In this document: piece by piece, positions 1,228 through 17,654 of the stretch
Numbering within the stretch: the stretch's first letter is position 1
Layout: each line of letters opens with the position of its first letter
IMG/VR virus record: IMGVR_UViG_3300017750_000154
Location: 1-20,994 of that record
From: a virus
Strand: one strand, 5' to 3'
DNA: 20,994 nt
The notes under the pieces: model-generated
What the model saw: the letters and a program-made list of their open reading frames with translations, nothing else
What the model was told of the DNA's origin: nothing
The model's database searches: none
Program-made: the position numbers and the translations under genes

Positions 1228-2853
1228 TCAAAATCTCGTATTTATGTCACCACTTGAACTCCAAACATCTTCACCATCAATAATAACCTCTTCTTGTCGC
1301 CCATCATCTATAATACCAACAGGAGTTAAACTTTCTTCGATTAAAAGACTTTGTTCTTTGAGTAAAATTGACCTTACATCAACATTTGTAGAATCTTTAA
1401 AGTAAGCTTGTGCTGTTAACCAACCAAATAATACAAGCCCCATAGCCAAATCATCATAATTACCCTCTTCAGCTGCATATGAATCACGAACACGAACAAA
1501 TGAGTTAAGTTCTGCTATCGTATCAAAGTCAACTAAGATTAACTTATCAGTTTCAATAAGTGTTTTTAAGTTTGCACAACCAATTTTCTTTACAGATTTT
1601 GTAGTTTTAATACCGAAGGAGGCATTTCTTCTGAAACCTCCTGATATTGTTTGACCTTTTATGTGATGCTGGTCTATCTTATAAATGTTTTCATACTCTA
1701 AATCATAATGTAAAATGTCAACAACTTGTTGACCAATGTTATTCGTTTCAATTAAAATATATGCCTCATTGTATTTCATACCAATTGAATATATAATATT
1801 TGGAAAAAACAATAAAGGTAAATCATTTGCTCTATATTTTGCAACTTGTTTATAAGGTGTTTGTGTTGCATCTATAATATTTATGGCCGAATAGTCTTGA
1901 CCGACACCCTCTGAACAATCAACTGTAGCTATGTAAACATGACCTTCTTTTGGTTCTTCATACATATCAAGTTGGTCAATTGTACTAATTGGGTTAAAAA
2001 ACGCAAGTGAACGTAGTTTAGAACCAGATATAAGTGTGGCTGATGAACCTATAAACTCAGTTTCAAACTCTTGTCTAAATTGTTCTTCTGATGTATTTCG
2101 TATTGTTTCTTTTTTCCAGTCCTCATCACGACCTGGTACCATAGACCAATGTACTTCTATTGGTGTATAAGATGATCTTTTTTCTATCGCATCAATCCAC
2201 ATTTTGTAGAATAAATTAAGACCATTTGGTGTAGAAACAATGATTACTTTTGTTGTTTTACCTGATGATATTACAGGGTATGTAGCAGTAAAAAATTCTT
2301 GTGCCATATTATGAGGCACGAAAGCAAACTCATCAAGGAATATTAAGTTGTAAGTACCACCTCGAACACCTGAATTAGATGTTGCATAGGCATATATTTT
2401 AGAACCATTTTCTAATTCTATATTACCTTTGTTCCAAGTTATAATACCTTGTTGTAACCATAAAGGTAGATACTCATATGCTCTTTGTAAACGACCAAGT
2501 ATTTCTCTTGCAAGTTGACCTTTATTTGCGAGAATACCAACTGTATAATCAGGATTAAATAAAACAGCCCATAACATATAACCTACAGTCGTAGTTGTCT
2601 TACCAACTTGTCGTGGCATTTTACATATTGAAAAACGATTCTTATGAAAACCATCTACCATTTCTTCTTGAAATGGCCACATATCAAAATCAACAATACC
2701 TAAGTCTACGTTGACAATCTTTACATATTTCTTAATAAAGTATATTGGATCTTCTGAACATTTTAATATCTCTTTTGCTTCTTCTTGAGTAAAAGGTATT
2801 TCAACGCCAGTTTTTTTTAGTCTTTCATTACCAAGATAACCTTCAGTTGACAT
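1228..2853 (-). CDS. 17: Terminase large subunit gp17 (DNA-packaging ATPase/nuclease)
   Basis: This is the motor that pumps phage DNA into the prohead and cuts the concatemer. The ATPase domain occupies about residues 55-270. It shows an adenine-binding WPFQ at 59-62, a Walker A MPRQVGKTTT at 79-88 with Lys85, a Walker B IFLDEF at 171-176 with Asp174 and catalytic Glu175, and a coupling STPNG at 207-211. The RNase H-like nuclease domain follows, with candidate metal ligands Asp312 (TVDCSEG), Glu369 (LIETNN) and Asp467 or Asp468 (NYDDLAMG). At 541 residues it is shorter than T4 gp17 (610), mostly at the N-terminus. Its ATG lies 11 bases inside the end of gp16, so translation is probably coupled to it. 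No strong ribosome site is visible; a weak AAGG lies upstream. Confidence 0.98.
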   Translation of the reverse strand: MSTEGYLGNERLKKTGVEIPFTQEEAKEILKCSEDPIYFIKKYVKIVNVDLGIVDFDMWPFQEEMVDGFHKNRFSICKMPRQVGKTTTTVGYMLWAVLFNPDYTVGILANKGQLAREILGRLQRAYEYLPLWLQQGIITWNKGNIELENGSKIYAYATSNSGVRGGTYNLIFLDEFAFVPHNMAQEFFTATYPVISSGKTTKVIIVSTPNGLNLFYKMWIDAIEKRSSYTPIEVHWSMVPGRDEDWKKETIRNTSEEQFRQEFETEFIGSSATLISGSKLRSLAFFNPISTIDQLDMYEEPKEGHVYIATVDCSEGVGQDYSAINIIDATQTPYKQVAKYRANDLPLLFFPNIIYSIGMKYNEAYILIETNNIGQQVVDILHYDLEYENIYKIDQHHIKGQTISGGFRRNASFGIKTTKSVKKIGCANLKTLIETDKLILVDFDTIAELNSFVRVRDSYAAEEGNYDDLAMGLVLFGWLTAQAYFKDSTNVDVRSILLKEQSLLIEESLTPVGIIDDGRQEEVIIDGEDVWSSSGDINTRF

Positions 2854-3235
2854 CTTTCTTGCCTTTTAACATTTTCACAAGATCGTTTGTAGAACCTACA
2901 AATACAGCTTTATCAACATTGATTTCATTTGTAGATTTTTTAGGTTCTAAATCTTGTTTTCTCTTTTGTATCTCAAGTAAATCTTTATTGAGTTCACCTA
3001 AGTTTTTAAGAGTTTGTGCTACAACTTCAAAGGCTCTAGGGTGTTCAGATTCTTTTGCAACTCTCAAAAGACTATCAAGAGCTGAGTCACCTTTATTGAT
3101 GAGTCCACGGATATTTTCTCGAGCAAATTGAGCATCATTCTCAACTTGTTTCTCAGGTTCAATTGGTACTATTTCAGTATTGTCTACTTCTATGGGTTCA
3201 ATATTTAATAGTTTAGATAGTTTCTCATTTTTCAT
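2843..3235 (-). CDS. 16: Terminase small subunit gp16
   Basis: This is the DNA-recognition subunit of the packaging enzyme. In T4 it forms rings, binds the packaging site and stimulates the ATPase of gp17. The 130-residue product has the central helical signature of T4-like gp16: ARENIRGLINKGDSALDSLL, then VAKESEHPRAFEVVAQTLK (about residues 39-77), then NKDLLEIQKRK, which suggests a helical hairpin. The tail of the protein (VDKAVFVGSTNDLVKMLKG) is also typical. T4 gp16 has 164 residues; the shorter size here fits marine relatives. Its ATG overlaps the gp15 stop as ATGA, and its end overlaps gp17 by 11 bases. There is no clear ribosome site of its own, so it probably depends on coupling to gp15. 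Confidence 0.93.
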   Translation of the reverse strand: MKNEKLSKLLNIEPIEVDNTEIVPIEPEKQVENDAQFARENIRGLINKGDSALDSLLRVAKESEHPRAFEVVAQTLKNLGELNKDLLEIQKRKQDLEPKKSTNEINVDKAVFVGSTNDLVKMLKGKKDVN

Positions 3236-4236
3236 AGTAATGTATCTGGATATTCAGTTATACTGGTTGCAAAACCAAACTCATCATCTGGGTCAGCACT
3301 AGCTGGATTAGGTGTTAATACTATTTCTGCAGCCTTTAATGGGTCACTTTCAACTGACCGAATCGTTATAGTTGCATTTGATGTATCACCTGTTACAATG
3401 TCACCAGCTTCTAATAATTTATTTAGTCCTGATGCAACCAACGTAGCATTAGCAACATTAGAGAATTGTTTTACAGTACCTATTACATCTCTGGCTGCGA
3501 CACGGATTGTTTCACCTTCTAGTAAAAGTCTATCTGGGATGTCAGGCCTGAAATCAGAGGTCACTCTTTGTGCAGATTTTACTTGACTCTCAATGTAAAT
3601 ATTAGTATTTGCTTGTCGTATATATTTACCTGATTTAACTGGTGGCCAAATATAACTCTTTGCAGTAAATTGTAAATCCCACATAATCAATCTAGTTGAC
3701 ATCATATCACCTTCATAATCAACTGTTGATTGTACTGAATTTAAAACAATTGGCATATCATACTTTTGATTCATTTCAGGTATAAAGTTTACTGTTACTG
3801 TAAAATCTGGTGTAAAAAAAGGTAATATCTGTTCTAATATTTGTGTACCATCTTCTGTATTTCTTACATAAATTGATAAATTAAAATCAAAATTGTATGG
3901 TATAGGTCTGTATTGTGTTTTTATGGATGTAGAAGTATTAGCTGCAAAATTTTGTGTAAGTGTATTTAATTTTCTACTTGTATCATACGTCATACTTACC
4001 ATCTCAAATGAAATACGAGGTATTACTGTTTGTACAGCTTTTGTGAGTGTTGGGTCTGCTGTGATTCTTGTAAGATATTTTTCTTTTGCACCATAAGAAA
4101 GTGGTACTTTAAATAAAGTTTGTTTAGTTGTACCATCCGACTTATATCTTTGTAAGATAATATCATTAAAAACTGTGCCAAAAGCGACAACAATTTTTCT
4201 GATTGTTCTATTATAAAATTGTGCGTTACCTAACAT
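3232..4236 (-). CDS. 15: Tail-completion/sheath-stabilising protein gp15, with C-terminal module
   Basis: gp15 caps the finished tail and connects it to the neck. The core, about residues 1-205, matches T4-like gp15: an N-terminal YNRTIRKIVVAFGTVFNDI, the middle PIPYNFDFNLSIYVRNTEDG, and LEQILPFFTPDFTVTVN at about 134-150, ending near YIWPPVK. T4 gp15 has 272 residues but this one has 334. The excess is mainly a C-terminal segment at about 236-310 (EGETIRVAARDVIGTVKQF, then LEAGDIVTGDTSNATITI) that looks like a small beta module resembling one in gp14. Start ATG overlaps the gp14 stop as TAATG, with GAGG just upstream. The family call is firm; the function of the added module is unknown. Confidence 0.92.
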   Translation of the reverse strand: MLGNAQFYNRTIRKIVVAFGTVFNDIILQRYKSDGTTKQTLFKVPLSYGAKEKYLTRITADPTLTKAVQTVIPRISFEMVSMTYDTSRKLNTLTQNFAANTSTSIKTQYRPIPYNFDFNLSIYVRNTEDGTQILEQILPFFTPDFTVTVNFIPEMNQKYDMPIVLNSVQSTVDYEGDMMSTRLIMWDLQFTAKSYIWPPVKSGKYIRQANTNIYIESQVKSAQRVTSDFRPDIPDRLLLEGETIRVAARDVIGTVKQFSNVANATLVASGLNKLLEAGDIVTGDTSNATITIRSVESDPLKAAEIVLTPNPASADPDDEFGFATSITEYPDTLL

Positions 4237-5138
4237 TATGCCTCACCAAACGGATTTGTTTCACTAAAGTCTAGTATACCATCACCACCAGCTTCTATTC
4301 TTAGATTATCAAAGGTATCTTCAAAGGCAGTATTCATTGTTGCAGTATCATCAGCAGTAGAAACTGTAAATACTGCGTTTGATGTATTACCAATTATGTT
4401 TGATGACGTAAATGTACCTTGAACTCTAATTACATCTATATGTGTATTTGGTACAAAAGTATGAACAACAGCTTGTGCTGTTGATAATGCAAGATTAGCT
4501 CCTTGAAATACTATTTCATTTTGTACATATTGACGTTGACCATCACCAGATAATGTAATTCTTGTTCTTGGGTAGTAATCATTTATCTTATCATCAATTG
4601 TAGGATTACCAGTTGATATAAGTTCATTAGAAAATACAAATTTCTTCAACTTCAATGCGAACAAATAAACATTTGCACCACGACCACGCCCTAAAGTATA
4701 AAACATAGCTTGATCGTTTTCATGTTCTACAAAAGTTATTTCAAAGAAAGCATCTGTAAGAGGTACATAAATTAAATCACCCTCTCTTGGTCTTACAAGA
4801 CTGGTAGATTCTTCTCTTACAGTATGTACAAATCTTTTACGAGAAACTAAAAGTGTTATTTCATCTCTAATTTCAAGACCAAATTTGGAAATATAATCAC
4901 CTTCACCCTCCATACCTTGTATATTTTCAAGATACATTTCAAGTGAAAATGTTTTAGTGTATTCTTTAAGTGTATCTTCACCAAAAAGAAAATCAATTTT
5001 ATCACCACTTGTTCTTGGTAAATACAAAACATCCATGCCATATATTTTCATGGACTCAATGACTAAATCTTCAACTAAAAGTTGTTCACTTGTTATTTGA
5101 TTGGCTGGAAAAGGGTTAAAATACTGATTAGTTGCCAT
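4236..5138 (-). CDS. 14: Neck protein gp14, with inserted beta module
   Basis: gp14 forms part of the neck ring that closes the filled head and accepts the tail. The N-terminus NPFPANQITSEQLLVEDLVI, followed by ESMKIYGMDVLYLPR at 28-42 and GEGDYISKFGLEIRDEITLL at 78-97, is diagnostic. T4 gp14 has 256 residues, while this has 300. An extra module at about 204-264 (YVQNEIVFQGANLALSTAQA, then GTFTSSNIIGNTSNAVFTV) sits before the conserved C-terminal end, which resumes near TFDNLRIEAGGDGILDFSE. I chose the ATG at 5138, three bases after the gp13 stop, instead of the in-frame TTG one codon earlier at 5141. The only ribosome-site-like sequence is a weak GGGA within the gp13 terminal codons. Confidence 0.93.
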   Translation of the reverse strand: MATNQYFNPFPANQITSEQLLVEDLVIESMKIYGMDVLYLPRTSGDKIDFLFGEDTLKEYTKTFSLEMYLENIQGMEGEGDYISKFGLEIRDEITLLVSRKRFVHTVREESTSLVRPREGDLIYVPLTDAFFEITFVEHENDQAMFYTLGRGRGANVYLFALKLKKFVFSNELISTGNPTIDDKINDYYPRTRITLSGDGQRQYVQNEIVFQGANLALSTAQAVVHTFVPNTHIDVIRVQGTFTSSNIIGNTSNAVFTVSTADDTATMNTAFEDTFDNLRIEAGGDGILDFSETNPFGEA

Positions 5139-5141
5139 CAA

Positions 5142-6140
5142 TTATCCCATGTAAATTTCATTTGGCAACACATTCAAGACTTGCATCTCCTCTTCTATCT
5201 TATCTATTTCTGCTTTTGCTTCTTCCATAATTCTAGGGCCATCAAGTGTAACACCGCCCGGCATTTGAACGCCGGCAAATTTTGATAAATTAGAACCCCA
5301 TTGGTATTTTATGAGAGCTGTTGTATATTTTTTTAAAAATCTATCATCCCACACATCAGAAAATCCTGCCTGTGTAATAGATGCACTTGTCATAGTTTTT
5401 CCTGGATTACTTCTTAAAGTAATTACTGTGGGTGAATTTATTTGTTTGATTTGAACTTCTACTGTATCAGCTGCGTCCGAATTATTTGTTAAAGTTATAA
5501 AATCATTTTCAATCAATTGTTGGTCAAAAGTTGTGCTTGTGCCTGTAAGTACATTTGCATCACTTGTGATTGCAGCTGAGCCAGATATATTAATTGTATC
5601 TGGTTGTAATTTACGATAACACTCTACAATTACATATTCACCAACTTTTAAATCTCTAGTCCAATCAACATCTAAAAATAATTTATTTTGATGTCGATTA
5701 AATCTAAATTGTGGTGTGCCTGAAAATAATAAATTAAGAGTTCTAATATGTTGCATTGTAATCTCATATGAAACATAAGAAACAGATGTGAAGTCATATA
5801 AGTCATGCAATCTCAATTGATATCTCAAGTCAAACATATTGATTGATGAGTTAGAATCATCAAAAGGAAAAACACCATTCACAAATATTACCGCATCAGG
5901 AGCATAAATCCATTTTCTCTCAATATCTTCTTGAGTAACTTGATGTTTCATGAATATTTTTTCAACACCATCAAAATGGTAGTCGTGAAAATATTGAAGA
6001 GCATCATCAATTCGATCTTCTATTTGGTCATCATCTACATTTATTTCTATTACAGGAAAACCCAATCTTCTTAAACAATAATCTTTAAATGATTGTCTTG
6101 TAGTTGGTTTACCTCCATATCCTCTCGTATATTCTGGCAT
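5142..6140 (-). CDS. 13: Neck protein gp13, with inserted module
   Basis: gp13 is the second neck protein needed to close the packaged head before tail attachment. The family signature is clear: RRLGFPVIEINVDDDQIEDR at 24-43 running into DDALQYFHDYHFDGVE, and near the end LKKYTTALIKYQWGSNLSKF followed by AGVQMPGGVTLDGP. Between these, after VECYRKLQPD at about 181, a segment of about 75 residues (ISGSAAITSDANVLTGTSTT and ENDFITLTNNSDAADTVEVQ) interrupts the line of the family before SDVWDDRFLKKY. It looks like a compact beta domain of the kind found in many phage structural proteins. Total length is 332 against 309 in T4. A ribosome site AAGGA lies 7 bases before the ATG, within the end of the preceding gene. 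Confidence 0.93.
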   Translation of the reverse strand: MPEYTRGYGGKPTTRQSFKDYCLRRLGFPVIEINVDDDQIEDRIDDALQYFHDYHFDGVEKIFMKHQVTQEDIERKWIYAPDAVIFVNGVFPFDDSNSSINMFDLRYQLRLHDLYDFTSVSYVSYEITMQHIRTLNLLFSGTPQFRFNRHQNKLFLDVDWTRDLKVGEYVIVECYRKLQPDTINISGSAAITSDANVLTGTSTTFDQQLIENDFITLTNNSDAADTVEVQIKQINSPTVITLRSNPGKTMTSASITQAGFSDVWDDRFLKKYTTALIKYQWGSNLSKFAGVQMPGGVTLDGPRIMEEAKAEIDKIEEEMQVLNVLPNEIYMG

Positions 6141-6141
6141 A

Positions 6142-6477
6142 TTATATCCTTGTTACACCTGGTAATACATTTACAATACCTTCAACTGCTCTTATTTTAT
6201 TACCACTTGATGAAGTTACTAGAACATCATACAAGTATCGACCTGCTCTAAGATTTGCAGTTGTGGTTGGTGACATGGTGATTGTTACTTGACCATTTGC
6301 ATTACCAGTAATTGTGGCAGTAAAAGCATTTGCAGAGGCGGAGTATGGTGATTTTCTGAGCTCAGAATTAGCCGAGTAGCCGAACAAGTTTATGTTTGCG
6401 CCTGCGTTATCTTTTACATGAATTGTGTTTGAAAAATTTGCGTATTGCTCTATGAAGAGCTCAGTATAAGTAGCGAT
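6142..6477 (-). CDS. BppU-like/baseplate-associated small structural protein, apparent ATC start
   Basis: A 111-residue product is proposed, and it resembles the small BppU-N-like proteins that commonly precede gp13 in marine T4-like phages. The frame reads ATYTELFIEQYANFSNTIHV from the second codon, then NLFGYSANSELRKSPYS, a beta-rich middle, and the closing AGRYLYDVLVTSSSGNKIRA and EGIVNVLPGVTR. The homologous part clearly extends above the first canonical in-frame start (TTG at 6387), which would remove 30 residues of the domain. The only codon well placed for initiation is ATC at 6475-6477, six bases after an AGGAG; a TAA stop lies in frame 10 codons farther up. No frameshift route to an upstream ATG was found. 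Its stop is one base from the gp13 ATG. Its role in the tail or neck is inferred from context only. Confidence 0.75.
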   Translation of the reverse strand: MATYTELFIEQYANFSNTIHVKDNAGANINLFGYSANSELRKSPYSASANAFTATITGNANGQVTITMSPTTTANLRAGRYLYDVLVTSSSGNKIRAVEGIVNVLPGVTRI

Positions 6478-6483
6478 CTCGTT

Positions 6484-6517
6484 CTCCTGTTTTAGGACTA
6501 TTTAGTCAAACCAGGAG
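6484..6517 (-). promoter_or_regulatory. Hairpin enclosing promoter box and ribosome site
   Basis: On the minus strand, outer arms CTCCTG (6517-6512) and CAGGAG (6489-6484) flank inner arms GACTA (6507-6503) and TAGTC (6500-6496) with an AA loop. The intervening GTTT and CTAAAA pair in part. The downstream outer arm contains the AGGAG ribosome site of the BppU-like gene. In read-through RNA that site would be paired. RNA starting from the box inside the hairpin would lack the upstream arm. Pairing was judged by eye, with no folding energy computed. Confidence 0.55.
6499..6505 (-). promoter_or_regulatory. Late-promoter-like box before the BppU-like and neck genes
   Basis: The minus strand reads CTAAATA, identical to the box before gp18, in a gap of 47 bases between the fibre genes and the BppU-like gene. 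With T4 late spacing the transcript would begin near 6493, giving a very short leader that contains AGGAG. No other promoter box is visible between here and gp18, so this box probably also drives gp13 to gp17. Activity is inferred from the motif and its position. Confidence 0.6.
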
Positions 6518-6524
6518 TTAGTTT

Positions 6525-6773
6525 TTACATACCCGCTAGTAAGAATGGATTGAATCCTGCTTCAGCAACTTCAACTGTAACATTAGCAACTCTTGTTACC
6601 ACACCTCGACTATCAATTGTGATAGATGGTATATTACCAGCACTACCATAATCGCCGGCTGAAACACCGGCTTGAGTGGCTAATTTAGCAGTTGGTATAC
6701 CGCCATCAGCAAAACCTTCGCCAGATATAGCTCCTTGTGCAATTGAATTACCTACAATTCTAGTTAGACTCAT
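6525..6773 (-). CDS. Small fibre-module protein
   Basis: An 82-residue protein of tail-fibre type. It begins MSLTRIVGNSIAQGAISGEG and contains the module GVSAGDYGSAGNIPSITIDS followed by RGVVTRVANVTV. This is the short repeat seen in many marine phage fibres, of the form YG.a..vP..TvD..Grvt. The same module occurs near residues 103-136 of the 10541-11041 product. The start is well supported: AGAGGAAT lies just upstream, and the ATG directly abuts the TAA stop of the preceding gene. The protein ends NPFLLAGM. It may be a short adaptor or fibre tip subunit, but no exact role can be assigned. Confidence 0.8.
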   Translation of the reverse strand: MSLTRIVGNSIAQGAISGEGFADGGIPTAKLATQAGVSAGDYGSAGNIPSITIDSRGVVTRVANVTVEVAEAGFNPFLLAGM

Positions 6774-7184
6774 TTATTCCTCTAAATTTAATTCTGGAGG
6801 TGGGTTACCTTCAGGTTTTGGAAACTTTTTCTTTACTTCATCTATTGATTTAAACCAGTCTGATTCTTTTAAATCTTGACCATTATTTACAGCGTGCCAT
6901 AGCATATCTAACTGTTGAAATCCATCAGGATAATGGTGACAACGATCATAAGCATATTGATAATATTCTGCTACTGATTTTTGCCTTTCAAATTCTGCCA
7001 TAATTTCATCTTTAGTTGGTGGAGGATTTCCTTGTGGGTCATCCCATTTAGGAAAACTAAAACTACCACCACCTGCACTCATTTCAAATTTAGCTTCAGG
7101 CCTTAAAGCCTTAATTGCTGTATCTATACCATAACCAAGACCGGATTGTCCTGTAAAATTTTTTGCTATCTCATCCACATTCAT
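6774..7184 (-). CDS. Conserved small phage protein of the tail-fibre region
   Basis: A 136-residue soluble protein with no signal peptide or membrane segment. It contains LRPEAKFEMSAGGGSFSFPK near residues 28-47, WDDPQGNPPPTKDEIMAEF at about 47-65, and a C-terminal half with GFQQLDMLWHAVNNGQDLK. This arrangement (W.dp...PPT..Ei, then Q.DMLwh.i..G) recurs in small proteins next to fibre genes of marine phages. I know of no established function; it may assist fibre assembly or act as a minor structural part. A strong ribosome site AGGAGG stands 10 bases before the ATG, and a TATAAATA box lies farther up, so it is the first gene of a transcript. Its stop directly abuts the next start. Confidence 0.8.
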   Translation of the reverse strand: MNVDEIAKNFTGQSGLGYGIDTAIKALRPEAKFEMSAGGGSFSFPKWDDPQGNPPPTKDEIMAEFERQKSVAEYYQYAYDRCHHYPDGFQQLDMLWHAVNNGQDLKESDWFKSIDEVKKKFPKPEGNPPPELNLEE

Positions 7185-7209
7185 TTTAAATTTTCCTCCT
7201 TTAATTATA

Positions 7210-7217
7210 TATTTATA
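7210..7217 (-). promoter_or_regulatory. Late promoter box TATAAATA
   Basis: An exact match to the T4 late promoter box lies on the minus strand in the AT-rich gap after the glycine-rich array. A second related box, CATAAATA, overlaps the end of the upstream gene at 7229-7236. From the exact box, transcription would begin near 7204, only a few bases before the AGGAGG site of the next gene. The intervening minus-strand sequence holds a run of nine or so A residues. Confidence 0.75.
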
Positions 7218-7231
7218 ATCTTTTTTTTTAT

Positions 7232-8224
7232 TTATGATACAGGTCCACCCGTTGCACCGCCTATACTATATTTAATAGTTGGTGAATCTACTGTGAAAGT
7301 ATATCTTGCATATCCTACTCCAGAACCACCAGCACCACCCGTTGTTGTTGTACCCCCATCTGAACCACCGCCACCGCCTCCACCGGTATTTACTGTTCCA
7401 GCAGTTCCAGCTGGGCCGCCTCCGGCACCTGCACCTCCGCCGCCAGCTCCTCCTGCTCCTCCAGGTCTACCTGCTCCTGTTATTCCACTTCCACCTCCGC
7501 CACCTGCTCTAGCTACAGGTGAACCTGAAATAGAAGATGTTGTTCCAGCACCTCCTGCTCCGCCTGCACTACCTGGAGTTGGCGCTTCACCACCAACGGC
7601 GCCAGCACCGCCGCCACCACCTCCTGTTGTCCATGTTGCATTATCAGAGTGACCAGGACCGCCATTATTACCTTGTGGGGGACTTGTAGGTGGGGTATTT
7701 CCAGCTCCACCTGCATAAGCATTATTAGGATAACCACCGGCTCCGCCACCAGAACCTCCAGCACCTCCAACTGCTCTTGATCCTCCGTAACCACCGCCTG
7801 TTGAAACTATATCTGTAAAAGGTGATGGTGATGTAATAGATGAATCAGTACCTTTTGTTCCAGGATTAAATGCACTAGAACCACCGGTGCCAGCAGCTCC
7901 GCCAGCACCAATTGTAAACTTGTATTCTTGGTCTTTAACTAAAGAAAGACCCGAAGTGAATCTAAATCCACCTGCACCTCCACCGGCACCTCCAGCACCA
8001 CCGCCTCCACCACCTCCAATTATTAAAAATTCTGCACCTGTCATGGCAAAACTTGGTATAAAATTAGCAGTAGATGTAAATTCATGAACAGCATTTGTAC
8101 CATCTATTGTTTGCGTACCACCAGTTGAGTTTGTGGCCGCATTTGCTGTTCCTACAACATTGAGGGTATTTAATCCTATCGGGTATTGATAACCGAGTGG
8201 TCTAGCTTTGTGTTTAATTCCCAC
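7232..8224 (-). CDS. Glycine-rich adhesin-like protein, third gene of the tandem array
   Basis: A 330-residue product, the last of three adjacent paralogues. The head (about 1-70) has ARPLGYQYPIGLNTLNVV, NATNSTGGTQTIDGTNAVHE and then GAEFLIIGGGGGGGAGG. The body (about 70-305) is dominated by glycine runs separated by short loops such as AGNTPPTSPPQGNNGGPG. The close is GGSGVGYARYTF and TGGPVS. The pattern is that of glycine-rich tail adhesin domains. Phage S16 gp38 folds similar runs into packed polyglycine II helices with variable loops at the tip, and a similar fold here is inferred. Translation starts at GTG, overlapping the previous stop as TAGTG, with GGAGG nine bases upstream inside the previous gene's last codons. 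The base composition is much richer in G and C than in neighbouring genes, because of its glycine codons. Confidence 0.85.
   Translation of the reverse strand: MGIKHKARPLGYQYPIGLNTLNVVGTANAATNSTGGTQTIDGTNAVHEFTSTANFIPSFAMTGAEFLIIGGGGGGGAGGAGGGAGGFRFTSGLSLVKDQEYKFTIGAGGAAGTGGSSAFNPGTKGTDSSITSPSPFTDIVSTGGGYGGSRAVGGAGGSGGGAGGYPNNAYAGGAGNTPPTSPPQGNNGGPGHSDNATWTTGGGGGGAGAVGGEAPTPGSAGGAGGAGTTSSISGSPVARAGGGGGSGITGAGRPGGAGGAGGGGAGAGGGPAGTAGTVNTGGGGGGGSDGGTTTTGGAGGSGVGYARYTFTVDSPTIKYSIGGATGGPVS
7660..7712 (-). repeat. Near-identical DNA segment shared with 8640-8692
   Basis: This stretch encodes the loop AGNTPPTSPPQGNNGG and matches 8640-8692 in the neighbouring paralogue with only a few base changes. 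The glycine stretches around it differ more. It may be a recently copied or conserved loop. Alignment was by eye. Confidence 0.7.
8083..8204 (-). repeat. Head-coding repeat, copy C of the glycine-rich array
   Basis: This segment encodes the head from about RPLGYQYPIGL to the TNAVHEF segment. It is homologous to 9053-9178 and 10024-10149. Of the three it is the most diverged, and it has lost the TRIGGS segment between the two conserved parts. Confidence 0.65.
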
Positions 8225-9198
8225 TAAACTGGTCCTCCGTTGCTTCCATCTATATCATAAATAACTGAATCACTAGTTTGTTCCATAACATATCTGAAAA
8301 TTACAATTCCTGAACCGCCGGCGGCTCCTGTGCTATTATTATGTCCTGCGGCTCCTCCGCCTCCACCGGTGTTTACTGTTCCAGCAGATAGAGCTGCAGC
8401 TGCTACACCACCAGCACCACCTCCTCCTGCACCGCCAGGAGCTGGGGGTCCAGCATTACCACCTCCACCTCCGCCACCCGCTCTAGTTACGGGTGATGGG
8501 CCTGAAATAGAAGAAGCTACACCTGTTCCACCAGCACCGCCGCCACCTGAAGCACTTGCATTATAATTTGATCCTACAGCACCAGCACCCCCGCCTCCAC
8601 CTCCATGTAAATATGAACCAGGTGCATGATATCCAATCCCGCCATTATTACCTTGTGGAGGGCTTGTGGGTGGAGTATTACCTGCACCTCCAGCAATTTG
8701 AACACCTCCAGTACCACCGGCGCCACCCCCACCAGAACCACCAGCATTTCCTGCCGAACCGGCAGAAAAAGAACTTCCGCCTCCGCCACCTTCAGATTCT
8801 ATTGTTGAAAAAGGAGCAGGTGCTGAAATTGTACTATTAACACCATCACTACCTCTTGCACCTGTAGCTCCGCCGGCCCCTACGGTTGCTGTGTGAGCTT
8901 TAGATGCAGTCATAGAAACTGTACCAAATCTATAACCTCCTGCACCTCCACCTCCGCCACCACCAGAACCGCCACCGCCACCGCCTCCTGCGATTACTAA
9001 GTATTCAACGTCCATATCAGCTGAGGGTGTAAAATCTGCCGTTGATGTAAATGTGTGAACAGCATTTGTTCCATCAACTGTTTGTGTACCACCAGTTGAG
9101 TTTGTGGCTACATTAACTGAAACTGAACCACCAATTCTTGTGCTTAAACCTATAGGATAAGCAAAACCCTCTGGTCTAAAAAAAGAATATCCTGCCAT
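8224..9198 (-). CDS. Glycine-rich adhesin-like protein, second gene of the tandem array
   Basis: A 324-residue paralogue of the genes on either side. Its head contains RPEGFAYPIGLSTRIGGSVS, NVATNSTGGTQTVDGTNAVH and DMDVEYLVIAGGGGGGGSGG. This last segment is typical of the entry into glycine-rich phage domains. Glycine runs fill about 75-300, with a AGNTPPTSPPQGNNGGIG loop almost identical to that of the next gene. The end is GGSGIVIFRYVM and IYDIDGSNGGPV. The ATG overlaps the stop of the first paralogue as TAATG, with GGAGG nine bases upstream inside that gene's final codons. It probably acts as a tail-tip or fibre receptor-binding protein (inference from composition and neighbours). No cleavage, signal or membrane feature is evident. 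Confidence 0.85.
   Translation of the reverse strand: MAGYSFFRPEGFAYPIGLSTRIGGSVSVNVATNSTGGTQTVDGTNAVHTFTSTADFTPSADMDVEYLVIAGGGGGGGSGGGGGGGAGGYRFGTVSMTASKAHTATVGAGGATGARGSDGVNSTISAPAPFSTIESEGGGGGSSFSAGSAGNAGGSGGGGAGGTGGVQIAGGAGNTPPTSPPQGNNGGIGYHAPGSYLHGGGGGGAGAVGSNYNASASGGGGAGGTGVASSISGPSPVTRAGGGGGGGNAGPPAPGGAGGGGAGGVAAAALSAGTVNTGGGGGAAGHNNSTGAAGGSGIVIFRYVMEQTSDSVIYDIDGSNGGPV
8234..8238 (-). promoter_or_regulatory. Ribosome site built from NGGPV codons
   Basis: GGAGG lies in the codons for Asn-Gly-Gly-Pro-Val that end the 8224-9198 protein. It stands nine bases before the GTG start at 8224, and the stop TAG overlaps that start. Confidence 0.75.
8640..8692 (-). repeat. Near-identical DNA segment shared with 7660-7712
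   Basis: This is the second copy of the loop-coding segment AGNTPPTSPPQGNNGG. It is in the same frame and at a comparable position in the second glycine-rich paralogue. Confidence 0.7.
9053..9178 (-). repeat. Head-coding repeat, copy B of the glycine-rich array
   Basis: This encodes RPEGFAYPIGLSTRIGGS to TNAVHTF. It is highly similar at DNA level to 10024-10149, including a long shared stretch for STRIGGS and NVATNSTGG, and this suggests relatively recent duplication. Confidence 0.75.
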
Positions 9199-10184
9199 TA
9201 TACAGGCCCTCCATTTGATCCACCTATATCATAAATTTCTGATACAAAATCTTGACTCATTACATAAGTAATCTGAGCAAAACCTGACCCGCCAGCACTA
9301 GCATTTCTTTGCCCTCCTGGATTTGAAACGTGACCCCCGCCACCACCTCCTCCGCCACGATTGGCTGTAGCTGCAGCTGGGGCAGCTGCGTGATTACCAC
9401 CAGCTGCACCGCCTCCATTACCTCCCGTTCCAGCAGGAGTTGAACCTGGATGTGTACCGCCACCGCCTCCGCCACCGTAATATTCTGGTGAACCAGTAAA
9501 AGTTATAGCTACACCGACACCGCCTGGTCCTCCTGTACCCGGAGTAGCGCCAGCTGTTCCTACTCCACCTGCACCTCCTCCACCACCGCCAGCTAAAGGC
9601 GCCCCATTTCCTCCAGCATAACCTTGAGCATTTCCTGCCACAGAGGGAGGTCCACCTGGAATTGCAGTCATTCCTCCTCCACCGCCAGAACCACCAGCGT
9701 TAGCAGGAGTTGATGATTCACCAGCACCACCCCCACCACCTTCAGCAGTTAAGTTTGATGATGGTGTATTTGAATTAATTGTTACTGTGGTATTTGTGCC
9801 GTTTGCACCTTTTGTTCCAGTAGAAGTTGAACCGGCACCGCCAGCTCCTAGTGTAATAGTTAAAACAGCTCCTGGTGCTACTGAATAATCATTACCAATA
9901 ATTACACCTCCAGCACCTCCACCTCCGCCAGCTTTTCCACCGCCAGCTCCACCAGCAACAAACATATAAGCAAAAGTATATGTGCCGGCTGAACTATTTG
10001 TAAAAGTACCTGATGAAGTATATGTGTGAACTGCGTTTGAACCAACTGCGGTTTGAACACCGCCAGTTGAATTTGTGGCTACGTTAACTGATTCTGAACC
10101 ACCAATTCTTGTGCTTAGACCTACTGGATATTTAAAACCCTGAGGTCTACCAATTTTCTTTGTGCTAAGACGAGAAATTCCCAT
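9198..10184 (-). CDS. Glycine-rich adhesin-like protein, first gene of the tandem array
   Basis: A 328-residue product that opens the three-gene array. The head reads GRPQGFKYPVGLSTRIGGSE, NVATNSTGGVQTAVGSNAVH and, after a short insert, TFAYMFVAGGAGGGKAGGGG. Glycine runs continue to about residue 300, interrupted by loops such as STSTGTKGANGTNTTVTINS. The end is GGSGFAQITYVM and IYDIGGSNGGPV. Its loops differ from those of the two following paralogues even though heads and tails are alike, as expected for adhesins under pressure to vary. The ATG at 10184 lacks a clear ribosome site, so it may depend on the gene upstream, whose stop is 9 bases before it. Confidence 0.85.
   Translation of the reverse strand: MGISRLSTKKIGRPQGFKYPVGLSTRIGGSESVNVATNSTGGVQTAVGSNAVHTYTSSGTFTNSSAGTYTFAYMFVAGGAGGGKAGGGGGAGGVIIGNDYSVAPGAVLTITLGAGGAGSTSTGTKGANGTNTTVTINSNTPSSNLTAEGGGGGAGESSTPANAGGSGGGGGMTAIPGGPPSVAGNAQGYAGGNGAPLAGGGGGGAGGVGTAGATPGTGGPGGVGVAITFTGSPEYYGGGGGGGTHPGSTPAGTGGNGGGAAGGNHAAAPAAATANRGGGGGGGGHVSNPGGQRNASAGGSGFAQITYVMSQDFVSEIYDIGGSNGGPV
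9208..9212 (-). promoter_or_regulatory. Ribosome site built from NGGPV codons
   Basis: GGAGG lies within the final Asn-Gly-Gly-Pro-Val codons of the 9198-10184 gene, nine bases before the ATG of the next paralogue. The spacing equals that at 8234-8238, although the synonymous bases around it differ. Confidence 0.75.
10024..10149 (-). repeat. Head-coding repeat, copy A of the glycine-rich array
   Basis: This encodes RPQGFKYPVGLSTRIGGS to SNAVHTY, and is paralogous to 9053-9178 and 8083-8204. The conserved heads probably attach the three proteins to the same site on the fibre or baseplate (inference). Confidence 0.75.
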
Positions 10185-11546: not shown

Positions 11547-14500
11547 CTATGTATTTGCTGATTTGTTACCTGAAGCTACAATCATTGGTGTAAAGTTTGC
11601 TGTATATCTAGCGAAATTTTTAGTTACTCTTACTTCATCTAAAAATCCGTTAAACCCATATATTTGTGAATTAGGTCCATTGAATGTTGAACCAAGAACA
11701 AATTCCCTATCTCTTTGTGTTGGGTAAGAAATATCTCTTACAGGGCCTTTTCTCTTACCATCTCTAAATACGCTATGATTAGTTCCATCTTTTACTAAAG
11801 CTATATGATACCATTTATGAGTTTCTATCTCATCATCATCCCAATCATATGTACTTGCGTGATATGACAAACGCCAATCATTATTACTTGAATCATAATA
11901 AAATTGATATTCAGATCCACTACCATATTTTGACCATAAAGTGTGTAGACCACTTAACTCTTCAAATTTTACAAAAGCTTCCCATGTAAAGTCTTGGTCT
12001 TTTGCAGTAAATAAACTCTCTTGTGTTTCTGATTCTGGTATCTTAATGTAATCATTACCATCAAAATATAGACTACCAGTACCAAATTTTGTATTTGCAG
12101 CTCCAGTTGATATTTGTGCCTCTGTAACAGGTGTAAGTATATTTTTTCCAGTTGAATCATATATTCCACCATTTGTAGCATTACAAAGGAATGCTACTGA
12201 ATTACTATAAAATTGATAAGTATTGTTTCTTGGTGCTGTTGGTACAGTTGTTGATTCATCAGCGTAACCTTGTAACACATACAAGTTACTTATATAACCG
12301 TTCCAACATTCAGTTGCATTTGTATTACCACCAAAGGCAAAGAATTTATTTGTTAAATCTGTTGAATAACTACCACTATCACTTGAAAATCTTTCATTAC
12401 CATTTACCATACAGTAAAGAGTACCACTTTTTCTATAAAATTTAACATAAGTCCATTCTTTAAGTCTTAATGTTATATTACTACCTGGATAAATTGGCCC
12501 ACCACTACTGGTATAAACAATAACTTTTTGAGAACCATTAAATCCAAATGCCGGTTTAGCAGCGTCATTATCTGCGCCAGTTCTAAATGAGAAGAAATAA
12601 TCGTTGTCACCGCCAGAAATACGATACACCCATGCACCAATCGTGAAATCTCCTGTGCCTAGAGGTCTTGATAAAAAACCTTTAACAGCATTTCCATCTC
12701 CTTCACCAAGATAAGAACCTCCATGATCATAAGGATCATATGATGTTTCTAATTTGAATGGGTAGAAAGGTTTAATTCTTACACCTCCTGCGTTTCCAGC
12801 TAAAGTCAAATCATGATCAATAGAACCATTGTCTTTAAATCGGTTTGATTGAAGTGCTAAAAGTTTAGTTTGAGCTCCTGTTGATGTAAGAGGTGCAGTT
12901 GGCGCTGTAGTTACACTTCTTCTAGCACCGTTAATCAATATAAAGTTACTCATATAACCTTTAAATGCAGTTTGCCCATCTCTTGTTCCTAAATTTACAC
13001 CTGCAGCTGCAGCCATAATAGCAGATGAAGATGTAGCAGTTCCAACTTGAGCACCATCTATATAAACATAAAAATTATTACCATTTCTATCTACTTGTAA
13101 CCATTGCCATCTATTGTTTACTATATCAGTAGAGAAGCTAATTGTTGTCCAACTACTTCCATCGAATGATATTAAAAGTTCATCATGTGCTAAGATGAAA
13201 GGAACATAACCACTTGTACCCATACAAGCAATAGCTGTTCTACCAGAAAGAGCACTTCCTTGAGGGAAAACCCAAACACCTATTGTGAAATCATTAGTAC
13301 CTAAATCATAATCATCATGGTCTGCGGTGTAAATGTTACTGCCACCATCAAACTCTGCACACCACCAACCATCCGGTGGATAATGTGGGCCAAAACTACC
13401 TTGTGAAACATCTGTACCTACTGTTGTGAGAGTACAGGCGTTTGCACTTTCATCTATAAATCCAACATTACGAATCGAACCTCTATATTTACCAGTCAAT
13501 AATGTTGTTTGTTGTGCTATCTCTGTATTTGCAAATGGAAAAACTGGTCTTGTATTTGCATTATCAATTTCTGTTATTAGAAGCAAAGAATTAGATTTAT
13601 CAACAAAGTTTGAAGATTGACAAGTTAATAGCACGGTGTTTGTTATTGCAGTAAGAGGTGCAGTTGGCACAGTTGTATCTAAAGCTGTTCCTTTTACAAG
13701 TCTAACATTTGAAATATTCCCGATGAACGGGTTGTTAGCTTCACCATCAGTACCAATTGTAAATAAACCGGTTGATGTTGGTAAATTGGCCCCTACGCTT
13801 ACAACTTCAGCACCATTAATATAAATTTTTAAAGTTGTATTACTGTGTGTATAAATTAATCTAAAATGATACCATTGACTTGCAACAAAACCTGGACCAT
13901 AGTCACCATCACCCGCCGTTCCATTTACAGCAAAAAAGCCCACTTTATTGGCAGAATAGGCAGCGCTACTATTCATATTAATACCGATACCCCATTTATT
14001 CACCGAACCTCCACCATTTGACATTCCAAATAAAACTCTAGCAGCAGAAGTTATGGTGGATAATCTAAACCAACACTCTAAAGTATAATCTTCTGTTATA
14101 CCACCCAAATTTGTGTTCGTAGAATTTGGTATTGTAAGACGATCAGATGTGCCATCAAATTGACCAGACCAGTACCCATCATCAAATGGGTTGTCTGCGG
14201 ATCTTATTACATCACCAGTTTTCGTTAATTCTAAATTTAAATATGAATTATCTTTTGTTACTTCTTTATCTTGACAAGCCAATAAGATTTGATCTCTTGA
14301 AAGTTCAGTTGAGAAAGGTCTTGACCGAGATATACGAGTGTCACCAGATATAGTTATTGCATTATTTCCTGTTGATTTATCAATAAAAGAACCAGATTGA
14401 CAAATCAATAATTTCACATCACTTGCTGTGGCGCCCTGTGAAGTTGTTGTTAAATAGTCTGTTGGTGGGGTAAAAGATGAATTAGCAGTAGCATAAGTCG

Positions 14501-17500
14501 TGGGTATCGACCCAACAACTAATCTTAAATTTGAAACTTTACCAAAAGTGTCATGGCTACCAGTTGTTCTTTGATCGCCAACTGAAAAACCATTTAAAGT
14601 CGGGGTGCCCGTATTATAGACATGACCTTTCATCACACCATCAATATATCCTCTTATGTTATTAGAGCCATCTCTTGTGATACAAATGTGAAACCACTCA
14701 TTTAAACTTGTCCCTGATGCTACATCAAATACTGGTGATGTACCATTATAACTAAAATGAAAATCACCAGAATCTTGTATATTCAACTGAAACTGATCTG
14801 TTGTGTCGGTTGATACAATTATATCAGTTGAAGAATCTTGTTTCTTAAACCAAAGTTCTAAACTCCATTGTCCTGATAGAGCTGAAGTTACCGAAGGTAT
14901 GTCTAAGTAATCATCTGTGCCATCAAAATGCACACTCCAATACCCATTATCATATGGGTTGAATGTGCTTATTGCGGAATTTTTATTAGTCATACTATGA
15001 TTCTTGTCGCTATTATCAATGAAAGTATTTGCTTGACAAGCTATGAGGCTTACTTCCGATGCTGTAGCACCTTGAGATGTGTTAGATACAGGCTCTGTGG
15101 GTACAAGAAAATCACCTGTACCATAAACTCCTGTTCCTTTAATAATACGCAAGTTTGATACTTGCCCTGTGTACATTGATACAGTTGTTTGATCTACATT
15201 ACCACCAATTGTAGCTCTTGCACTAGCATTGTTAAGATTGTCTGTTGAAGCAACAGTTGTTGAACTCATTTTACCATTAACAGCAAAATATAGAGTACCA
15301 CTTATTCTCTGAATACACAAATGTTGCCAAGAATTTATCTTAACTGGTATATCACTTCCTGCTGTTTTATTAGCACCAATATAACATCCTAACACTCCAC
15401 TAAATAAAGTTATTGCAGATATATTATCTGTGCTTGAATTATTATTATATCTTAAATCTAAAATAACAGCAACTGATGGTATACTTTTAGGAAATGCCCA
15501 ACACTCAACAGTAAAGTCTCCTGTGCCAAAAGCAAAATCAGAACTTGCTGCTGTTGTTAAATTATCACTATTACCATCAAACTCAACAGAATGATTATTT
15601 ACTGGCGCTGTACCTACTGTTGTAAATGGGGTATTTTGAATTTGTGTATTTGCTGTATATTTCGGAACACCATTTAAGATGTTTAAGCCATGAATCTGAC
15701 CTTGAAATTGTTGACCGCCTGATGGTTGATTCAAACTTATGTTAATATCACCATGTGAATAATTAACTGAGTCTGTGTAAACGTCACCCTCTCTTAGACC
15801 ATCAAGATACATTGTGGTACTATTACCAGACCTAACAATAGCTAAATGATACCATTTACCAGTTGATAAAGCTCTTGATGTTATTGCAGCTGCTGTATTT
15901 ACATACCATAAAATTTTCTTTGCACTATTTAAAATAATTGCTGGATATGCTCCATTAGCAACTCTCGCATCATATAAAAGCATATCAGAGCCAGGCAAAC
16001 CTGTTGCATTAAACCACATTTCAATTGTAAAATCGTTTGAATTTCTAAAAGCAAAATCATTTACGGGTATCGGATTTGTATTTGCTAAATGGTCTGATCC
16101 ATCAAAAAAAGTGCTAAATTGATTTGTTGCAATTGTACCTGAATTTGAGGTATTTGCATAAGATGGTGGTTGTAAATTAGGATGAAAAGAAGTATTTGAT
16201 GTGTATTTTGCTCGACCTTTTTCTACACGGATATCAGACAGATATCCTATCCAAGGTTGTGAAATCGCACCATCTCCAGCACCAATTATAAGTCTAGTGG
16301 GTGTATTTAAGTTATTTGTATCTGCGGCTGAGCCTTGTAATTCGCCGTTCATGAATATTCTTGATGTGCCATTTTCTCTACAAAGTGCTATATGAGTCCA
16401 TTCATTTTTTCTAATTTTTCTTGTTGAAGAAACAAGGAGACTACTATAATATAAACCAAGAATTTCTGAAGTAGGTTGTTTATAAAAATATATTTCTGTT
16501 CTATTGCCACCAGTTTGGCGAGTCATAATTCCTCTTTGGCCGGTGTCAGTTGACATATCATAACACCAAAGTTCATATGTAAAATCTTCTGTACCAAAAG
16601 TATACTTCTGTGTTGTATCGTTTGCTGCCACATAACCGGTACCATCAAGATAAATTGATCCAGTATTTGCACTTGAATATATTTGTGTGTTACTTGTATC
16701 TGAAACAAGATTTGGAAAAGGTGTAAAAACGGATACTCTTGGTGTTCCAGTTGGCTCTAAGTCGAATTTACTTAAACTATTGTCTTTAAATCTATTTGAT
16801 TGTAAAGTTAAAAGTTTTACATCACTCGCAGATGTGCTTTGTGAAGTTGTCGTAAGTGGACTTGTGGGTGCTGTAAAAGCCGAGGTGTAAACAGCTGCGT
16901 GTGTAATTTTAAAATTACTTATATAGCCATCTAATGCGGTTGAATAATCTTCAGGATTTCGACCAATGCGAAAGGCTCCTGTCCAACCCGTTAAATTACC
17001 TGAAACTGTGCCGGTAGCCGATAAATCACCGTTGACATAGAGTTTAGATTCATTTGTTCCGGTGCCCTCTCGTACAAATGCGACATGAGCCCATTTATTT
17101 TGTATTGCAGCTCTTACACTTGTAGCGGTACTAAAGTTACCACCACCAACTGTTTGTTCAATAGTAAGTGCGCCATCACCACTATCATGTAAATTAATTT
17201 TTGAAGATCCTCCGCCACCATTAGATAAACCCCAAACCGGTTGAAAAGCGTCAGGTCCAGCTATGTATAAAAAACACTCAACAGTTATAGGATTACCACT
17301 TACATCTATAACACTATTAGGCACCGTAATATAATCAGGTGTGCCGCCAAAAAATTCTACACTCCAAAATCCATCACTATAATACCATGGACTAAAATTA
17401 GTACCATGAACATTCGTGCCTTCTATTTGTAGTTGTTGATCATTTGGGCCATCATCTGATATGGCTAAATACTGAGCTTCTGGTGCTGGGTTATTTAAAT

Positions 17501-17654
17501 TATTTGCGCCTGGATTCCCATCCCCATGAACAAGTAGAATTGTATTTGCGTATTGGTCATCAGTTCTTTCAGCTACAGCACCACCGCCACCACCACCACT
17601 ATCAGAAGCTGTATTTGCAGCTGCGCCTAGAGCTGAAAGTGTAATTAAATCCAT
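11547..17654 (-). CDS. Giant virion-associated protein with nine tandem LamG-like domains
   Basis: A 2035-residue uninterrupted frame. After a glycine-rich N-terminus (GGGGGGAVAER, 20-30), nine concanavalin A/LamG-like domains follow at about 97-260, 332-490, 513-672, 688-845, 905-1062, 1160-1332, 1430-1590, 1647-1808 and 1861-2022. Each has three landmarks: an F-DG-or-related opening strand (such as SVEFDGNSDNLTTAASSDFA), a DFT.E.W strand, and W.H.al.R....LYvnG. Most then have G.isN.ri..g...Y. Linkers carry LLTLQSNRFKDNS-like motifs. LamG domains bind sugars or proteins, so this is probably a host-surface binding fibre; no catalytic site is seen. The start overlaps the previous stop as TAATG, without a clear ribosome site. 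It takes up 29% of the window. Confidence 0.92.
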   Translation of the reverse strand: MDLITLSALGAAANTASDSGGGGGGAVAERTDDQYANTILLVHGDGNPGANNLNNPAPEAQYLAISDDGPNDQQLQIEGTNVHGTNFSPWYYSDGFWSVEFFGGTPDYITVPNSVIDVSGNPITVECFLYIAGPDAFQPVWGLSNGGGGSSKINLHDSGDGALTIEQTVGGGNFSTATSVRAAIQNKWAHVAFVREGTGTNESKLYVNGDLSATGTVSGNLTGWTGAFRIGRNPEDYSTALDGYISNFKITHAAVYTSAFTAPTSPLTTTSQSTSASDVKLLTLQSNRFKDNSLSKFDLEPTGTPRVSVFTPFPNLVSDTSNTQIYSSANTGSIYLDGTGYVAANDTTQKYTFGTEDFTYELWCYDMSTDTGQRGIMTRQTGGNRTEIYFYKQPTSEILGLYYSSLLVSSTRKIRKNEWTHIALCRENGTSRIFMNGELQGSAADTNNLNTPTRLIIGAGDGAISQPWIGYLSDIRVEKGRAKYTSNTSFHPNLQPPSYANTSNSGTIATNQFSTFFDGSDHLANTNPIPVNDFAFRNSNDFTIEMWFNATGLPGSDMLLYDARVANGAYPAIILNSAKKILWYVNTAAAITSRALSTGKWYHLAIVRSGNSTTMYLDGLREGDVYTDSVNYSHGDINISLNQPSGGQQFQGQIHGLNILNGVPKYTANTQIQNTPFTTVGTAPVNNHSVEFDGNSDNLTTAASSDFAFGTGDFTVECWAFPKSIPSVAVILDLRYNNNSSTDNISAITLFSGVLGCYIGANKTAGSDIPVKINSWQHLCIQRISGTLYFAVNGKMSSTTVASTDNLNNASARATIGGNVDQTTVSMYTGQVSNLRIIKGTGVYGTGDFLVPTEPVSNTSQGATASEVSLIACQANTFIDNSDKNHSMTNKNSAISTFNPYDNGYWSVHFDGTDDYLDIPSVTSALSGQWSLELWFKKQDSSTDIIVSTDTTDQFQLNIQDSGDFHFSYNGTSPVFDVASGTSLNEWFHICITRDGSNNIRGYIDGVMKGHVYNTGTPTLNGFSVGDQRTTGSHDTFGKVSNLRLVVGSIPTTYATANSSFTPPTDYLTTTSQGATASDVKLLICQSGSFIDKSTGNNAITISGDTRISRSRPFSTELSRDQILLACQDKEVTKDNSYLNLELTKTGDVIRSADNPFDDGYWSGQFDGTSDRLTIPNSTNTNLGGITEDYTLECWFRLSTITSAARVLFGMSNGGGSVNKWGIGINMNSSAAYSANKVGFFAVNGTAGDGDYGPGFVASQWYHFRLIYTHSNTTLKIYINGAEVVSVGANLPTSTGLFTIGTDGEANNPFIGNISNVRLVKGTALDTTVPTAPLTAITNTVLLTCQSSNFVDKSNSLLLITEIDNANTRPVFPFANTEIAQQTTLLTGKYRGSIRNVGFIDESANACTLTTVGTDVSQGSFGPHYPPDGWWCAEFDGGSNIYTADHDDYDLGTNDFTIGVWVFPQGSALSGRTAIACMGTSGYVPFILAHDELLISFDGSSWTTISFSTDIVNNRWQWLQVDRNGNNFYVYIDGAQVGTATSSSAIMAAAAGVNLGTRDGQTAFKGYMSNFILINGARRSVTTAPTAPLTSTGAQTKLLALQSNRFKDNGSIDHDLTLAGNAGGVRIKPFYPFKLETSYDPYDHGGSYLGEGDGNAVKGFLSRPLGTGDFTIGAWVYRISGGDNDYFFSFRTGADNDAAKPAFGFNGSQKVIVYTSSGGPIYPGSNITLRLKEWTYVKFYRKSGTLYCMVNGNERFSSDSGSYSTDLTNKFFAFGGNTNATECWNGYISNLYVLQGYADESTTVPTAPRNNTYQFYSNSVAFLCNATNGGIYDSTGKNILTPVTEAQISTGAANTKFGTGSLYFDGNDYIKIPESETQESLFTAKDQDFTWEAFVKFEELSGLHTLWSKYGSGSEYQFYYDSSNNDWRLSYHASTYDWDDDEIETHKWYHIALVKDGTNHSVFRDGKRKGPVRDISYPTQRDREFVLGSTFNGPNSQIYGFNGFLDEVRVTKNFARYTANFTPMIVASGNKSANT
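11589..17366 (-). repeat. Array of nine LamG-like domain repeats
   Basis: The repeat unit is about 155-170 residues with linkers of 15-95 residues. The repeats are recognised at protein level; DNA copies are diverged, so the array looks old and not like a recent tandem expansion. Linkers after domains 1, 4, 5, 6 and 7 share an LL..QS..F.D.S motif. Shorter linkers follow domains 2 and 3. A duplicated linker lies between domains 5 and 6, and between 6 and 7. Confidence 0.85.

Follow-up and report, generated by a model that had tools for sequence, protein, structure and literature searches.

A tail gene of a marine T4-like phage carries, across its Shine-Dalgarno (SD) sequence, an RNA hairpin with a T4-type late promoter nested inside it, an arrangement that is likely to gate translation in cis in the manner of T4 gene e. 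The device itself is already known in T4; what is new here is its presence at a tail gene, its conservation through paired mutations and the very rare AUC start. The window (the whole stretch of DNA analysed) is a viral contig of 20,994 bases whose minus strand carries the large tail, neck and terminase genes; its large terminase is 54-55% identical to proteins of cyanophages S-PM2, S-CREM1 and Bellamy. Read from 6518 on the minus strand, the site is ACTCCTGGTTTGA CTAAATAG TC CTAAAACAGGAGA ACGAG ATC (Table 1). An inverted repeat with 10-nt arms that are 90% complementary, CTCCTG (6517-6512) and CAGGAG (6489-6484), encloses CTAAATA. The first-pass annotation had placed this motif in an inverted repeat whose CAGGAG arm is the SD of the BppU-like gene and had likened the arrangement to T4 gene e; the former was confirmed, on the minus strand, and the geometry is indeed that of a late promoter in an SD-hiding hairpin.

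Table 1. Features of the tail-gene site and its surroundings in the window
Feature	Position	Strand	Basis
Two ATAAATA late-promoter candidates (7210, 7229), preceding transcription unit	7210..7235	-	Motif
Upstream gene, 82 aa, member of read-through unit	6525..6773	-	ORF list
Stem 5' arm ACTCCTGGTTTGA (anti-SD arm)	6506..6518	-	Hand-set arms, covariation
CTAAATA, T4-type late promoter motif, within hairpin	6499..6505	-	Motif, relatives, Aeh1 precedent
Inner small hairpin GACT-AAAT-AGTC, window version	6496..6507	-	Fold
Predicted late-RNA 5' end, C of CTAAATA at -12	6493	-	Inferred from PMC1524935
Stem 3' arm CTAAAACAGGAGA	6483..6495	-	Hand-set arms, covariation
AGGAG, SD sequence, 6 nt ahead of start codon	6484..6488	-	Sequence
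Probable AUC start codon, invariant among clade contigs	6475..6477	-	Relatives with ATG, TTG or GTG there
Tail protein gene (BppU-like, 111 aa)	6142..6477	-	Profile and structure matches
Downstream block gp13-gp17, genes adjoining/overlapping	1228..6140	-	Profile recognition
gp13	6140-5142	-	Profile
gp14	5138-4236	-	Profile
gp15	4236-3232	-	Profile
gp16	3235-2843	-	Profile
gp17	2853-1228	-	Profile

Since the predicted RNA starts downstream of the 5' arm of the stem, only read-through RNA would contain this arm. In read-through RNA from the window the SD was unpaired with a probability of 0.003-0.013 (approximately 99% paired), against 0.27-0.29 when the upstream DNA was shuffled, and a value as low as that of the window was obtained in 2-4 of 200 shuffles. 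The predicted late leader is the 16-nt AAAACAGGAGAACGAG, the predicted RNA from 6493 reading AAAACAGGAGAACGAGAUC, and in this RNA the SD was unpaired with a probability of 0.50, i.e. about half free. A difference between the two RNAs had been anticipated by the first-pass annotation and was found; the incomplete release of the SD in the predicted late RNA of the window nevertheless counts against the gate reading. The same behaviour was observed in nine distinct homologous leaders, in all of which the stem sits exactly on the SD, with SD unpaired probabilities of 0.000-0.013 in read-through RNA (matched by 0-5 of 200 shuffles) and 0.22-0.72 in promoter-started RNA. In contig G016 the SD was hidden in read-through RNA, but its release in the predicted late RNA was weak. 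The energy of the whole fold was moderate (z -1.9, 9/200 shuffles).

Comparison with relatives indicated that it is the pairing that is conserved. CTAAATA was retained 20-30 nt 5' of the start in all of homologs L264-L285 and L320. When the stem arms were aligned manually with loops removed, four distinct helices were present among full-stem relatives (CTCCTGG.., CTCCTGT.., CTCCCGT.. and CTCCCAG..), and covariation was derived from these. Over the 13-pair stem 86.5% of alignment cells were paired and both-sided changes occurred at four pairs, for example U-A to C-G and G-C to A-U; compensatory changes in relatives, which the first-pass annotation had named as a check, do exist. With the pairing slid by 1-3 columns as a control, 37-56% of cells were paired and both-sided changes were seen at 0-1 pairs. 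The stems of relatives also contain G-U pairs, as RNA would give. The window is identical to L006 and L007 over 111 and 65 nt, respectively, spanning hairpin and start; between the same contigs the divergence at four-fold sites of neighbouring genes is 22-33%, and identity in the upstream gene only 60-63%. In six clade contigs with 2-12 promoter/start pairs each, the tail-gene promoter alone has an SD-hiding hairpin, those of the tail sheath, tail tube and other genes being without one. These data bear on the reading of the inverted repeat as a protein-binding DNA operator surrounding the late promoter, to which its palindromic form and overlap with the promoter would lend themselves. Such a role is highly improbable given that the stem changes with compensation and G-U pairs, that the sequence of the site is not conserved and that other late promoters of these contigs lack the repeat.

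Assignment of CTAAATA (6505-6499) as a late promoter is well supported. The late promoter of phage Aeh1 is CTAAATA beginning at -12 (PMC1524935), and the predicted start at 6493 follows from placing the C of the motif at -12 as in Aeh1; cyanophage late promoters have the form NATAAATA (PMC2984593). MTAAATA is not enriched in the window as a whole (14 seen, 15 expected), and five of the ten minus-strand copies sit 15-50 nt 5' of a gene start (P = 8e-6). The motif also precedes genes for the tail sheath, tail tube and a head scaffold-type protein in an overlapping 51-kb contig and relatives. Homologs of a gp55-type sigma factor are encoded on two larger clade contigs, G010 and G011 (E 1e-20 to 2e-21), and none was found in the 51-kb contig, which like the window is a fragment. 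Sigma-70-like matches near the site are consensus matches only. The two ATAAATA candidates further upstream are the probable source of read-through RNA, and no intrinsic terminator (GC stem plus T run) was found at 6100-7300 of the window. The first-pass annotation had proposed a timing switch, and this part was not supported: with upstream candidates of this motif that are also late and no terminator before the tail gene, the main effect of the hairpin would be to filter out read-through from late promoters, and expression from the gene's own promoter only fits better than a delay until late infection. Its suggestion that the site controls entry into the neck/terminase block stood in part. 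The promoter does head a block of the BppU-like gene and genes 13, 14, 15, 16 and 17, but the hairpin covers the BppU-like SD only; as gp13 has a separate SD of its own (AAGGA), control of the whole block would be possible only via the promoter itself.

In one sister clade the hairpin appears to be exchanged for a terminator. L284, L285 and L320, which form a single clade on the tree (support 99/93), have an intrinsic terminator, AAACCCAC..GTGGGTTTTTT, after the upstream gene and ahead of the promoter. The SD of these three was unpaired with a probability of 0.16-0.72, no more hidden than in shuffles, and stem energies were -3 to -4 kcal/mol compared with -9.5 to -17.5 in the others. In another clade (L286-L288) there is neither late promoter nor hairpin, and the start is ATG. 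The finding of a terminator in leaders that do not hide the SD suggests that read-through RNA is kept from being expressed by the hairpin, and that hairpin and terminator may share one job, blocking tail-gene expression from such RNA; as this is a single instance in a single clade, the exchange is suggestive at most. Together with the compensatory changes it provides comparative evidence for a block on read-through expression, and these natural variants would allow hairpin, terminator and start codon to be separated. The same replacement could be read as a sign that the hairpin is mainly a terminator, or an exonuclease barrier for the upstream messenger, with SD pairing as a by-product. A promoter in a hairpin of that kind does occur in a relative: just upstream of position 1501 of L031 a late promoter lies within a terminator-like hairpin, TCCCTCAG..TATAAATA..CTGAGGGATTTTTT, with a T run after it, where read-through RNA would end at the hairpin and promoter-started RNA would pass. 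At the window site there is neither a T run nor a terminator prediction, the stem lies exactly over the SD in nine of nine leaders and SD hiding exceeds that in shuffles, making this explanation very unlikely.

The preferred reading is a translation gate. Upstream late promoters would feed read-through RNA having both arms, which would fold and bury the tail-gene SD, leaving the gene silent on such RNA. A gp55-type late sigma factor would use CTAAATA within the hairpin, and since the RNA starting at about 6493 would be without the 5' arm, the SD would be freed and a ribosome could start at AUC. The tail gene would be translated from its own promoter only, with the AUC codon keeping the level low. 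Anatomy, conservation, covariation and terminator exchange were computed or compared, and from these we infer promoter use, the translation block, AUC initiation and low dose. In the window the stop codon of the upstream gene is 7 nt from the CTCCTG arm, and a terminating ribosome could for this reason open the hairpin, making tail-gene translation on read-through RNA proportional to that of the upstream gene. The stop-to-arm distance is likewise short in several relatives (in L279 and L281 the stop is more distant than in the window), but upstream genes differ by lineage and their ends lie 21-88 nt before the tail-gene start. Such coupling would have no need of a promoter inside the hairpin, and the hairpin is lost in the terminator-bearing relatives; we consider it unlikely. 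A bypass or frameshift joining the upstream ORF to the tail gene was also weighed and rejected on account of in-frame promoter stops and an upstream-stop spacing that varies among relatives.

The tail gene is likely to begin at AUC, as judged from comparison of homologous genes. For an ORF read from the ATC at 6477 the next ATG, GTG or TTG is the TTG at 6387, and there is an in-frame stop inside CTAAATA. Homologs at 35-60% identity mostly have ATG where the window has ATC, and this alignment makes ATC the likely start. The codon differs by clade, being ATC in that of the window, TTG or GTG in sister clades and ATG in the promoter-less clade. In the three lineages that carry it ATC is unchanged and neighbouring codons vary, with an in-frame promoter stop in each leader; it is never ATT or ATA, and the first 30 codons have 4-9 synonymous changes. 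Fixation of ATC amid synonymous change is expected of a start codon and not of an internal Ile. The rare start noted in the first-pass annotation is thus conserved across the clade of the window. A weak start in combination with a gate suggests that the dose of the tail protein matters. Gene callers limited to ATG, GTG and TTG would truncate or overlook genes of this kind.

The AlphaFold model of the tail protein is all beta with a pLDDT of 91.5. Its best solved matches include DT57C baseplate and T5 tail tip chains (TM 0.70-0.76), with 80alpha baseplate chains also among them, and its PHROG match is to L-shaped tail fibre assembly; a Pfam search gave no match. The fold is of the L-shaped-fibre-assembly/BppU-like Ig type, and BppU-like is a fair label for it. 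Other putative tail fibre sequences were observed in the window. The gp13 (5142-6140) carries approximately 70 inserted residues that L134 gp13 lacks, and part of the insertion matches a tail fibre family. Three consecutive fibre-like genes at 7232-10184 (324-330 aa each) are glycine-rich paralogs, with a further related gene at 18884-20416, and a protein of 2035 aa (11547-17654), probably a giant adhesin or fibre, contains nine laminin G/concanavalin-like domains.

A scan of all viral contigs for the nested arrangement, requiring complementary arms and an ATG start, recovered 16 contigs, some closely related, compared with none for a reversed arm and two for a scrambled promoter. In T4 the same script recovers three genes, taken from their N-termini to be e, 49 and I-TevI. 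In the raw pattern scan 44 of 120 matches were without a start codon in position, and enrichment across whole T4-like genomes was weak, with 11 of 122 promoter/start pairs at the <=5% shuffle level where approximately six would be expected. Matches at a UmuD-like gene (L127 and relatives) were discarded as false positives, being located at CTGTATAAATACACAG, which resembles a LexA box. That the window hairpin arose by chance at an ordinary late promoter would accord with its moderate fold z-score and with the abundance of MTAAATA motifs in an AT-rich genome, but covariation, conservation, the SD-specific shuffles and scan ratios of 16 to 0 and 16 to 2 render it extremely improbable. Among gp13 homologs the late-promoter motif is present in 47 of 68, and eight appear gated. 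In the unrelated L090, L134 and L183, gp13 is likewise preceded by a nested late promoter/SD hairpin, the stem sequences being unrelated, and six homologs (L440, L444, L450, L465, L480 and L481) have a compact version of the gate in which the 5' arm consists of the promoter tail and untranscribed spacer (e.g. ATAAATAtccctataggGGGAtataATG), like T4 e, 49 and I-TevI. Endonucleases (L093, L111, L130, L145 and L163), mostly of homing-endonuclease types, are frequent among genes with the nested architecture, as is known for I-TevI.

A textbook T4 control device is here extended to a tail gene of uncultured T4-like viruses. A broader possibility, advanced tentatively and with some doubt, is that nested-promoter SD hairpins form a general gate restricting T4-like phage genes to their own promoters, interchangeable with inter-operon terminators and paired with weak starts (AUC, UUG, GUG) fixing the dose of low-copy tail proteins. 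Non-canonical starts are found in infC (AUU in E. coli, ATC in Streptomyces) and sigR (GTC), where they are IF3-repressed (PMC5472188). The tail gene resembles these in the conservation of a non-canonical start codon and differs from them as a structural phage gene with no known feedback and a start joined to a hairpin. Its promoter is like those of cyanophages and Aeh1 in motif, spacing and place ahead of virion genes, although most T4-like late promoters in the clade contigs, unlike that of the tail gene, are not within an SD-hiding hairpin. The closest comparison is with T4 e, soc, 49 and I-TevI, in which the SD is hidden by a hairpin, a late promoter lies within the region coding its 5' side, and promoter-started RNA is without that side (PMC3014915). 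The nested late promoter, the SD-hiding hairpin and the predicted absence of its 5' side from promoter-started RNA recur here. In contrast to T4 e, the gene concerned encodes a tail protein rather than lysozyme, the start is AUC, UUG or GUG in the window lineage and its sisters, read-through would come partly or wholly from other late promoters rather than the early ones of T4, and in a sister clade the hairpin is swapped for a terminator.
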